A stretch of DNA of 64,000 nt from Arenibacter latericius DSM 15913 (lineage in GTDB: Bacteria > Bacteroidota > Bacteroidia > Flavobacteriales > Flavobacteriaceae): contig NZ_AUKX01000009.1 of NCBI RefSeq assembly GCF_000424985.1, positions 62,001 through 126,000 on the forward strand, in the 5' to 3' direction. This document shows positions 28,769 through 31,433 of the stretch, piece after piece; positions within the stretch are counted from its first letter, which is position 1; every line of letters begins with the position of its first letter. Below the pieces are notes generated by a model. The model saw nothing but the letters and a program-made list of their open reading frames with translations, searched no databases and was not told the DNA's origin. The translations under genes and the position numbers were made by a program.

Positions 28769-28836
28769 TGTACCCCTTCATAGACGCTGTAAATGTTAAA
28801 TTTTTAAAATTTATTTAGATTTATTTTAAATAATGC

Positions 28837-28866: not shown

Positions 28867-28918
28867 CACCTGTTTTTAATTTACTAATTATAATCAGTCT
28901 AAATAAGCATAAGCTTTT

Positions 28919-30097
28919 ATGAAATCGTCCATTTATTTTCTAGCATTGATGTTTAGCCTTACTATGATGGGGCAAACAGAGAGTAAATCAAATGCTCAAA
29001 CTCCAACTAACAATAAAGCTGGAGAACCTCGTATACAATCCAATACAGGGGACTCGCCATTAACAATCGGAGGTTATGGTGAAATTTTATATAACCAACC
29101 AGAGGGTGATAATGGTGAATTAGATATTCAGCGATTGGTCCTTATGTTAGGGTATCGTTTTAATGATAAAACCCAGTTTTTTACAGAAATTGAATTTGAG
29201 CATGTGGAAGAAGTGTATGTAGAGCAAGCTTTTGTAAACTATAACGTGGGGAGTAATGTTAACTTAAGAGGAGGTTTAATGTTGGTTCCTATGGGAATTA
29301 TTAATGAGTACCATGAGCCTACTACTTTTAATGGGGTAGAGCGTCCTGCACTAGATAATGTTATTGTTCCTACTACTTGGAGGGAAATCGGTATAGGTGT
29401 TAGTGGTAAGCTAAATAACCTATCATTAGGATACCAAGCTTATGTTTTTAACGGATTTAAATCTACTGCCTTAGATGGGGAAGGTGGTGTTTCTGGGTTT
29501 TTAAAAGGGTCTAATGGTTTGCGCGGTGGAAGACAAAAAGGAATAAAGTCTACTGTGGATAGCCCTACATTTTCTACTAAGATAGATTACTATGGCATAC
29601 TTGGGTTAAAACTTGGGTTCTCTACCTATTTCGGAAAGACTCAAGCTGCAGACAATGTTGAAAATTTGGATGGTGCTAACATCGGGATAGCTATGTACGG
29701 CTTAGATGCTCGCTATACTTATGATCGTTTTACGGCAAGGGGACAGTTTATCCATGCTTCTCTTTCCGATACAGATAAGTACAATACATTAACAAATAGG
29801 GATTTAGGAAGTGCCTTGCAAGGATATTATATAGAAGGAGCCTATAATTTATTACCTGCTAACAAGGAGCAGAAATTATACGTCTTCACTAGATATGAAA
29901 ATTATAACACCCATGCGGATACTGCAGGTGGATTAGTTAAAAATAAAGCCTATGATAGAACGGATGTTACTGCCGGACTAAGTTATCATATTGCACCAGG
30001 GGTAGTTTTAAAAGGAGACTATCAAATTAGAGATAATGCACTTTCGGGGGATGAGGTAAAAAACAGATTAAACTTTGGGATAGGAGTTTGGTTCTAA
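28919..30097 (+). CDS. Outer membrane porin (OprO/OprP-like beta-barrel)
   Basis: The 392-residue protein has a signal peptide, a short Asn/Thr/Gln-rich linker and then a barrel of alternating aromatic strands (I-G-G-Y-G-E-I-L-Y-N near the start, ending N-F-G-I-G-V-W-F with a terminal Phe as in outer membrane proteins). The L-D-I-Q-R-L-V-L-M-L-G-Y-R-F strand and the G-G-L-M-L-V-P-M-G-I segment fit the phosphate-selective porin superfamily. The solute is unknown. It has its own promoter and terminator, so it is probably transcribed apart from the FMN-binding gene downstream. Confidence 0.87.
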   Translation: MKSSIYFLALMFSLTMMGQTESKSNAQTPTNNKAGEPRIQSNTGDSPLTIGGYGEILYNQPEGDNGELDIQRLVLMLGYRFNDKTQFFTEIEFEHVEEVYVEQAFVNYNVGSNVNLRGGLMLVPMGIINEYHEPTTFNGVERPALDNVIVPTTWREIGIGVSGKLNNLSLGYQAYVFNGFKSTALDGEGGVSGFLKGSNGLRGGRQKGIKSTVDSPTFSTKIDYYGILGLKLGFSTYFGKTQAADNVENLDGANIGIAMYGLDARYTYDRFTARGQFIHASLSDTDKYNTLTNRDLGSALQGYYIEGAYNLLPANKEQKLYVFTRYENYNTHADTAGGLVKNKAYDRTDVTAGLSYHIAPGVVLKGDYQIRDNALSGDEVKNRLNFGIGVWF

Positions 30098-30143
30098 ATC
30101 AAGAAGTATGCAGTGATGTTTACTATCTGCATCAATAGAATAA

Positions 30144-30190
30144 AAATTCCGATAGGGTCTCTTTATTTAGGCTGTTATCGGAATTTTTTA
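30144..30190 (+). terminator. Terminator of the porin gene
   Basis: Eleven-base arms AAATTCCGATA and TATCGGAATTT flank a loop of about 21 bases and are followed by TTTTTA. Confidence 0.8.
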
Positions 30191-30381
30191 TGTTCGTTTA
30201 AAAAGAAAGTGATTGTCAGCACTGGGTGTTAGTAAATTACCTCAGATTAGGCTGGAGAGTAATTAAAGAAAGATATCGATTATAAACTTATATAAGCTTT
30301 GTCGTAATTCGATTTCAATTAGAATAGAATATTTTCTTATGCTCAGAGGTCAGTTTATTATTAAAAATGATTCTAAATTAG

Positions 30382-30393: not shown

Positions 30394-30930
30394 ATGATAA
30401 ACCGAATTAAAATAACGGGTCTATTCCTACTTATGGGAATACTCTTAATGGGAAGTGGTCTTCCCAAGCAGTTACAGAAAAGGGTAGAGAAGGAGATAGA
30501 GAAAGTTTTTGAAGTTGAAAACATAGAGATAAAGTCTTATCCTGTATCTAGTGAAATCAATGCATCCCTACCTACAAAAATTACGGCTGACAATTTCTTT
30601 AAACTAGAGAAAGGCTCAAGGCTTATCGGTTATTTTTATGTGGGAAATGCACCTAGTAAAACAGCAATCTTTGATTATCTAGTAGTATTTGATGCTAATG
30701 TAAAGGTGGTTCATTCTAAAGTATTGGTGTATAGGGAAGAATATGGAGGGGAAATTGGTAGTAAAAGGTGGTTGAAGCAGTTTGTAGGGAAATCTGGGAA
30801 GGATAGGGTAGATCATACTACTAATATAGATGGTATTTCTGGAGCTACTATTTCTGTACGCTCCATGACAAACGCTATTGATAGTTTGTTACAAACAATA
30901 GGAATCCTTCAAAATAAAAAACTGCTTTAA
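30394..30930 (+). CDS. FMN-binding domain protein (covalently flavinylated type)
   Basis: The 178-residue protein has an N-terminal signal or anchor helix (about 8-24) and one FMN-binding domain of the RnfG/NqrC type. The flavinylation motif is S-G-A-T-I-S (149-154) with acceptor Thr152, which in studied members is linked to FMN by the transferase ApbE. It should face the periplasm and carry electrons. No apbE or Rnf/Nqr genes are in the window. The next gene overlaps by one base (TAATG), so the two are coupled and probably work together. Confidence 0.87.
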   Translation: MINRIKITGLFLLMGILLMGSGLPKQLQKRVEKEIEKVFEVENIEIKSYPVSSEINASLPTKITADNFFKLEKGSRLIGYFYVGNAPSKTAIFDYLVVFDANVKVVHSKVLVYREEYGGEIGSKRWLKQFVGKSGKDRVDHTTNIDGISGATISVRSMTNAIDSLLQTIGILQNKKLL

Positions 30931-31433
30931 TGAATTATAACGGCTTGCTAATAAATTTGCCACCTGGCATAAAGTGGTTTGTAGGTTCTTTTGTACTAGT
31001 ACTCAGTATCGGTTTTTATACCGGATTGCTGTTTGTTTCCAATACCACCTCTACTTCAAGTAGTGGATTAGTTGAGAATTATTTAGGAAATGAGGAGAAT
31101 GAGGAGGCAGAAATCATGAAATTTAAAAAAGGGGATAGGGAGATGTTGACAATCATTCATACTCATGTACTATCCATGTCGTTTATATTTTTTCTTCTTG
31201 GCGGATTGGTATGGATTGCTAAACTGCCTTATAAATTAAAGATGTTCCTTACTATTGAACCTTTAATTTCCGTATTGCTAACTTTTGGAGGTATATATCT
31301 TATGTGGTCCGGATGGTTATGGATGAAATATGTGGTCATGTTTTCGGGTTTTTTAATGACTCTTACCTATAGCGCATCGGCAATTTTAGTGGTTTATCAA
31401 TTGTTTTTAAAACCTTCTACTGTCATTAAATGA
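30930..31433 (+). CDS. Small membrane protein partner of the FMN-binding protein
   Basis: The 167-residue protein has four hydrophobic segments (about 17-37, 78-97, 105-126 and 133-160). An acidic, hydrophilic loop of about 40 residues lies between the first two. Helix 2 begins with I-H-T-H (His77 and His79), and helix 3-4 have Trp-rich turns (W-S-G-W-L-W). I do not recognise a family. Paired His residues at the membrane surface would fit heme or quinone contact. Start-stop overlap with the FMN-binding gene argues for a joint function in membrane electron transfer; this is inference. Confidence 0.65.
   Translation: MNYNGLLINLPPGIKWFVGSFVLVLSIGFYTGLLFVSNTTSTSSSGLVENYLGNEENEEAEIMKFKKGDREMLTIIHTHVLSMSFIFFLLGGLVWIAKLPYKLKMFLTIEPLISVLLTFGGIYLMWSGWLWMKYVVMFSGFLMTLTYSASAILVVYQLFLKPSTVIK

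Follow-up and report, generated by a model that had tools for sequence, protein, structure and literature searches.

The locus in Arenibacter latericius

The window examined here is a stretch of 64,000 nucleotides from Arenibacter latericius DSM 15913, and the gene cassette of interest lies on its plus strand. The first gene (positions 28919–30097) encodes a predicted outer-membrane porin of 392 residues with an OprP/OprO fold. It is followed by a gene for an FMN-binding (FMN_bind) protein of 178 residues (30394–30930), in which an N-terminal hydrophobic helix, a putative export signal, is recognizable by eye. The third gene encodes a four-helix membrane protein of 167 residues (30930–31433), termed the HxH protein after its histidines at positions 77 and 79. 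The last two reading frames share a single base within TAATG, an overlap that an initial annotation of this DNA had reported and that is seen in the coordinates of the frames. Among the loci of the genome collection, the nearest named one is that of Arenibacter certesii DSM 19833, whose membrane protein is 96% identical.

Both transcription units of the cassette are preceded by Fur-type boxes. These were scored against the Fur box of the related flavobacterium Riemerella, ATTTAGAATTATTCTAAAT, which was predicted and is backed by gel shift (PMC5609570). The box in the porin promoter (28813–28831) has two mismatches and ends 87 bp before the ATG, and a second, weaker box (28886–28904) has four mismatches. 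The box in the FMN_bind promoter (30360–30378) has three mismatches and the ATG is 15 bp downstream. Between the porin and FMN_bind genes is a terminator-like hairpin on the plus strand (30142–30188), with a T run at the 3′ end and an RNA folding energy of −18.6 kcal/mol. It is not listed by the promoter and terminator consensus scans, which near the cassette gave matches no more often than in shuffled sequences.

The FMN-binding protein

The window protein matches the FMN_bind domain (PF04205) at E 1.7e-8, with 35.4 bits against a curated cut-off of 22. Thr152 sits in the stretch ISGATIS, a flavinylation motif of the [S/T]GA[S/T] type that the initial annotation had picked out, and does not vary among the 33 aligned sequences, that of the window included. 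Further invariant positions of this alignment are Y113, R114, E115, G118, Q129, G150, A151, and S154. The host genome holds three ApbE genes above the cut-off, so the earlier proposal, which depended on an apbE somewhere in the genome, is not refuted on this point. With a domain above cut-off, a conserved motif, and ApbE in the genome, the protein is predicted to be of the ApbE-flavinylated type. One further FMN_bind gene above cut-off lies near an apbE on host contig C24 and, from its neighbors by eye, is taken for NqrC. The closest solved relative of the cassette protein is RnfG (9eri, E 2e-9), but unlike RnfG/NqrC systems the cassette is without other Rnf or Nqr subunits.

The HxH membrane protein

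The paired histidines of the membrane partner, which had also been pointed out before, are present and strictly conserved: His77 and His79 are invariant in 25 of 25 and, in a larger alignment, 33 of 33 membrane proteins, counting that of the window. Gly53, Phe87, Glu110, Pro111, and Phe119 are likewise invariant among the 33. The predicted model (m642ede6cb457, pTM 0.72) has four helices, at residues 12–40, 69–95, 101–126, and 132–158. Applied to this model by our own reading, the positive-inside rule places the HxH face, along with the loop that precedes it, toward the periplasm, the compartment in which the flavoprotein is expected.

The suggestion that the histidine pair is suited to heme finds no support in the alignment. 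Over the 33 sequences there is no conserved histidine besides His77 and His79, which share one helix, so a single subunit has no conserved pair of histidines on different helices between which a heme could be held. The protein therefore lacks the conserved bis-His arrangement that marks a b-type cytochrome. Heme binding by the HxH motif of a single subunit was rejected on these grounds; a heme held by a dimer is considered below.

The window protein has no Pfam family at E up to 1, a sequence search of solved structures was equally empty at that limit, and Foldseek with its model found nothing at an E of 0.001 or less. The 11 Pfam families matched by 25 aligned homologs include none of the classes associated with flavinylation (NapH-, MsrQ-, PepSY-, DsbD-, and NQR/RNF-like, and DUF4405). 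Fold matches to helical bundles reach Z 11.6 at best, below the value (about 13) given by the tool for bundles, and the match to chain 8q4h_C of an RDH complex has a Z of only 7.5; nothing is concluded from either. Pfam, profile, and structure comparisons thus detect no homology to known electron carriers. A search of plasmids with the membrane protein as query gave no match.

The porin

The predicted porin model (m1ade160b58bf, pTM 0.82) is a barrel with, by our count, 16 long strands. Its best fold match is to the OprP/OprO phosphate porins; superposition on OprP (2o4v) gives Z 26.1 and an rmsd of 3.4 over 308 aligned residues, so that the comparison of models indicates an OprP-type barrel. 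The Porin_O_P family (PF07396) does not match the window porin and matches 6 of 18 aligned porins, at best with 1.2e-9. The cassette porin differs from OprP/OprO in a conserved E-x-E-x-E-H stretch, common to other porin relatives, in which Glu90, Glu92, and Glu94 are invariant across 31 aligned porins. An iron filter formed by this acidic motif was considered and set aside, the motif not being specific: a similar stretch occurs in porins outside the cassette, including those of Manganitrophus and Pseudoalteromonas.

Two plasmids carry relatives of the porin in other surroundings. In Candidatus Manganitrophus (L065:4914–6077) a 33% identical porin has no annotated FMN-binding gene beside it. 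On a plasmid of Pseudoalteromonas donghaensis (L068, 3866–8102) a relative precedes genes for imelysin and a di-haem oxidoreductase, a neighborhood that is possibly another iron link of this porin family.

Conservation of the cassette

Loci were collected by means of the membrane protein. Among 196 genomes sampled from the order it occurs in 14, and a profile search of 296 genomes sampled from the phylum found it in 28, the host genome being included in both counts; two weak partial matches in the latter (G064 and G448, E about 5e-4) were discarded, as was locus L021, which has two stops and an E of 5.5e-4. The species collection added 14 loci, which were assigned to family f1 according to their titles. 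Of 57 loci, nine (L009–L013, L015–L018) are shorter copies of L091–L099, leaving 48 distinct loci besides that of the window. They are not fully independent, L070 and L071 being 97% identical over 5.3 kb and L080 and L081 95% identical.

In 47 of the 48 loci an FMN_bind gene is directly upstream of the membrane-protein gene on the same strand, and in 46 a porin gene is on that strand as well; given the way of collection, these counts describe how constant the partners of the membrane protein are and do not give the frequency with which FMN_bind proteins are paired with such a membrane protein. The missing FMN_bind gene is that of L020, a contig of 1.9 kb that was kept in the count as a miss. 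The porin is missing there and in L069, where a DUF6607 gene replaces it. An apbE gene shares the strand of the cassette in 11 loci (L070, L071, L072, L074, L075, L077, L078, L080, L081, L088, L090), a count from which a distant apbE would escape in L014, L019, and L020, with flanks of about 1.5 kb or less. It directly follows the membrane protein in six of the 11, is one gene further in L088, and precedes the porin in four. A gene for IMP dehydrogenase is found downstream of family-f1 loci and is absent beside the other loci examined. Its restriction to f1, together with the conserved partners, defines the unit as porin, FMN_bind protein, and HxH protein, with or without ApbE.

These results reshape the picture given by the initial annotation. 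It had named the conservation of the gene pair in other genomes as a check, and the pair holds together in 47 of 48 loci. The motif, apbE, and this linkage give good support to an extracytoplasmic redox unit in which a flavinylated subunit is paired with a membrane partner, but the two-gene form and the heme at the HxH motif fall away: the porin is a third conserved gene, and apbE is a fourth in some loci. The link to the porin had been called weak, on the grounds of a separate promoter and terminator. The hairpin is real, but both transcription units carry the same type of box, and the constancy of the porin (46 of 48) contradicts a weak link.

Proteobacterial counterparts

Plasmids of Ideonella dechloratans, Bradyrhizobium, Methylocystis heyeri, and Sphingomonas encode a barrel, an FMN_bind protein, ApbE, and a small membrane protein, and a Novosphingobium plasmid is a fifth with the same core by our own reading of its frames. 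The profile of the cassette porin detects the porins of Ideonella, Bradyrhizobium, and Methylocystis (E 9e-76 to 5e-51); in Sphingomonas the barrel is DUF6662. The small membrane protein of these plasmids has four invariant histidines in four aligned members, and two members have weak Pfam matches that fall short of the cut-offs, one to DUF4405 (E 0.0067, Ideonella) and one to cytochrome b561 (E 4e-4). Common ancestry with the HxH protein was rejected, hhalign giving probabilities of 0.4% and 0.2%; the two share a comparable place and size only. The arrangement is read as one slot with two kinds of membrane partner, differing between the phyla, and both kinds may be electron donors.

The Ideonella plasmid (L066, 1749–7877) has genes for a histidine kinase, a response regulator, and a CCP_MauG di-heme protein directly upstream of its porin, FMN_bind, ApbE, and membrane-protein genes. 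On the Methylocystis heyeri plasmid (L101, 6747–8428), multicopper oxidase and ferritin-like genes follow the cassette.

Two alternatives are touched by this comparison. In the first, the HxH protein would itself be a b-type cytochrome, with heme held by the HxH motifs across a homodimer as modeled for FezC (PMC11334425). This arrangement is compatible with iron reduction, and both the FezC precedent and a cluster position comparable to that of the four-His protein speak for it. The absence of a second conserved ligand and the 0.2% probability in the profile comparison with the four-His family make it rather improbable. In the second, the FMN_bind protein would dock in the porin and pass electrons out to extracellular iron or flavin. 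Such a conduit would be in keeping with the constant linkage of porin and flavoprotein in Bacteroidota and on the three proteobacterial plasmids with a related porin, but the porin model is that of an ordinary OprP/OprO-type barrel, a single FMN on a small domain makes a short bridge, and no recurring extracellular partner was seen among the neighbors read. We regard it as very improbable.

Fur-type boxes

The palindrome before the porin was first noticed by reading the sequence and was then matched to the Riemerella box. Within the whole window there are five strand matches with three or fewer mismatches to this consensus, versus 0.29 expected. They fall in three places: before the porin (28813), before FMN_bind (30360), and inside another gene (36805). 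In the whole genome, the same threshold gives 17 places, with 22 strand matches versus 15 for a reversed control and hence not clearly above it. Most of the 17 are not before a gene recognized as iron-related. For both reasons, the evidence from the single genome is modest.

Comparison across loci provides strong evidence for a predicted box at the cassette. In a test of 44 loci that considered the porin start only, the best match of the locus is at this position strictly in 34 and tied in 5. With the reversed box the count is 9, plus 12 ties, and 300 palindromic permutations average 2.4; one of the permutations is the reverse complement of the box and gives the top value of 34, the next value being 22. 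A second test considered the start of the operon in 45 loci of 11 families and placed the best match at the cluster start in 40, tied in 5, and elsewhere in none, with the first gene set by hand after viewing the matches for L069, L072, L075, L077, L080, L081, and L090. The porin-only test is free of such hand-set starts.

Where the porin is not first, the box precedes the leading gene, which is fur in L072, apbE in L075, L077, L080, and L081, and DUF6607 in L069. The match is weak, with five mismatches, in L075, L080, L081, and L090. As in the window, a box is also found before FMN_bind in several relatives (L022–L026, L029, L032, L034, L099), and several have a second match near the cluster start too.

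The host genome has four FUR-family matches, one FeoB, and three PepSY_TM matches, of which one contains stops. Its feoA-feoB genes have a five-mismatch match only, directly before feoA. On host contig C22 (L129:1548–9714), a box with two mismatches is 19 bases before a TonB-receptor gene. This gene is followed on the same strand by genes for a 449-residue protein (no Pfam), a 501-residue ankyrin-repeat protein, DUF2271, and a PepSY_TM-flavodoxin-NAD reductase. DUF2271 together with PepSY_TM has been described as a flavinylated system with a link to iron (PMC8238504), and genes of this kind are listed as iron-responsive in Caulobacter (PMC3751524). The ankyrin protein is an odd member of such a cluster. 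With a predicted Fur box in its promoter, one of the features by which a Fur regulon is recognized, the cassette is very probably a member of the iron regulon. The initial annotation had proposed no function; the promoter boxes and some of the neighbors point to iron.

Neighboring genes

Searches by tblastn with Fur, FeoA, FeoB, and ferritin as queries found relatives in 6 of 45 loci. The other 39 have none beyond a partial match of 58 residues in L083. FeoB follows the cassette in L029, L032, and L034. L072 has Fur, FeoA, FeoB, porin, FMN_bind, HxH, and ApbE genes on a single strand, and in L090 Fur is two genes upstream. In L069 a ferritin gene faces the cassette. The identities of these neighbors are those given by Pfam. 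The DUF6607 gene in the place of the porin (L069:7044–7970, minus strand) has a Fur-type box in front of it and the ferritin facing it, a context that hints at an iron role for DUF6607.

The iron-type regulation would also suit a HxH protein that is a permease or other handler of a metal such as Fe(II), with the flavin recharged by another system. The HxH motif and the intramembrane glutamate are the only invariant polar side chains of the protein, which is without a bis-His pair. FeoB beside some cassettes would then be redundant, however, and the four invariant histidines of the cytochrome-like proteobacterial protein suggest electron transfer in that slot. A metal-handling role is thus improbable.

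Other neighbors bear on a role outside iron uptake. In L079, L084, and L085, all of one family, the cassette is preceded on its own strand by a gene with a SelR domain (methionine sulfoxide reductase), and several loci of that family have rhodanese and SufE genes beyond the cassette, Pfam-checked in L076. The flavin protein and a heme-free partner could replace iron-containing periplasmic carriers in supplying electrons to another enzyme, for example a methionine sulfoxide reductase or a peroxidase, while the porin serves another nutrient. A cassette that shows no iron cofactor yet carries a Fur-type box would fit such iron sparing. The SelR genes suit a general periplasmic electron supply, and on their account we gave this explanation slightly more weight; the CCP_MauG protein directly upstream of the Ideonella porin agrees with it too. 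Among the loci read, however, SelR is confined to one family, where the promoter box separates it from the cassette; the porin accompanies the redox pair in 46 of the 48 loci; and 6 of 45 clusters have FeoB, Fur, or ferritin next to them. Iron sparing is accordingly judged unlikely.

Comparison with known systems

A tie between flavinylation and iron has been described before (PMC8238504; PMC11334425). The PepSY-like iron systems, composed of DUF2271, ApbE, and PepSY_TM, resemble the cassette in having a flavinylated periplasmic protein, an inner-membrane partner, and a link to iron (PMC8238504). In the cassette, FMN_bind takes the place of DUF2271, the HxH protein without heme ligands that of PepSY_TM, and a porin that of the TonB receptor. 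The DUF4405/FezC cytochromes are likewise small membrane partners of a flavinylated protein (PMC11334425), but the HxH protein of Bacteroidota has no DUF4405 match and lacks their histidine ligands. A precedent for its proposed function is PceB, the small membrane subunit of PceA2B2, which is described as showing no evidence of cofactors and as having menaquinone bound at the interface with its redox partner (PMC10624902). PceB has three helices and no demonstrated sequence relation to the HxH protein and serves as precedent only.

No description of the cassette was found in the open-licence literature, and the word porin is absent from the main text of PMC8238504 and of PMC11334425; a mention in the supplementary tables of the former is possible. 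The parts of the cassette are of known kinds and the arrangement is new, and the membrane classes given in the two papers miss the HxH protein by Pfam.

Proposed mechanism

We propose that the cassette serves Fur-controlled reduction of iron in the periplasm, and thus reductive iron uptake, by a porin, a flavinylated reductase, and a membrane partner; the probability of this reading is roughly 55%. When iron is plentiful, Fur would repress both transcription units. Under iron starvation the porin would admit iron, free or weakly chelated, to the periplasm. ApbE supplied by the host genome would attach FMN covalently to Thr152, and the flavinylated protein would reduce Fe(III) to Fe(II). The HxH protein of the inner membrane would recharge the flavin, most likely from menaquinol and without heme, and FeoB would then import Fe(II).

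The conserved triplet of genes, the motif for flavinylation, the invariant HxH histidines and glutamate of the membrane protein, the porin fold predicted by the model, the Fur-type boxes, and, in some genomes, adjacent FeoB, Fur, or ferritin genes are features of the sequences themselves; we infer which way electrons flow, that quinol is the donor and iron the substrate, and that heme is absent. Counted in favor of iron uptake were the linkage of the triplet, the boxes, the iron neighbors, the C22 cluster, the genomic Fur, FeoB, and ApbE, and the PceB precedent. Counted against it were the genome-wide box matches near the control, the five-mismatch match at feoA, the 39 of 45 loci without iron genes, SelR in three loci, a membrane protein without known relatives, the unspecific porin motif, and DUF6607 in L069. 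The weakest step is the feeding of the flavin by the HxH protein from menaquinol without heme. It is proposed because there is no second histidine ligand, because the protein has a constant place beside the flavoprotein, and because PceB provides a precedent (PMC10624902).

A broader form of the proposal is tentative, and we think it doubtful that all of it will hold. The cassette would be a complete ferric reduction system free of iron cofactors, extending from the outer-membrane porin to the inner membrane and made in starvation only. The HxH protein would represent a new heme-free class of quinol-oxidizing proteins that feed a covalent flavin. The system would stand in for a periplasmic reductase of inorganic Fe(III) in many Bacteroidota, and in Proteobacteria a heme protein would take the slot of the HxH protein beside the same core of porin and flavin protein.

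Significance

In Bradyrhizobium, the periplasmic reductase of inorganic Fe(III) that acts before uptake by FeoB is stated to be unknown (PMC10760861). The set of three to four genes described here, found in 11 families of Bacteroidota together with a promoter element and a porin partner, is a candidate for Fe(III) reduction. The analysis also brings to light an unclassified family of membrane proteins with two invariant histidines. The porin and the flavoprotein appear to form a conserved module in which the inner-membrane slot differs by phylum, being filled by the HxH protein in one and by a four-His protein in the other.
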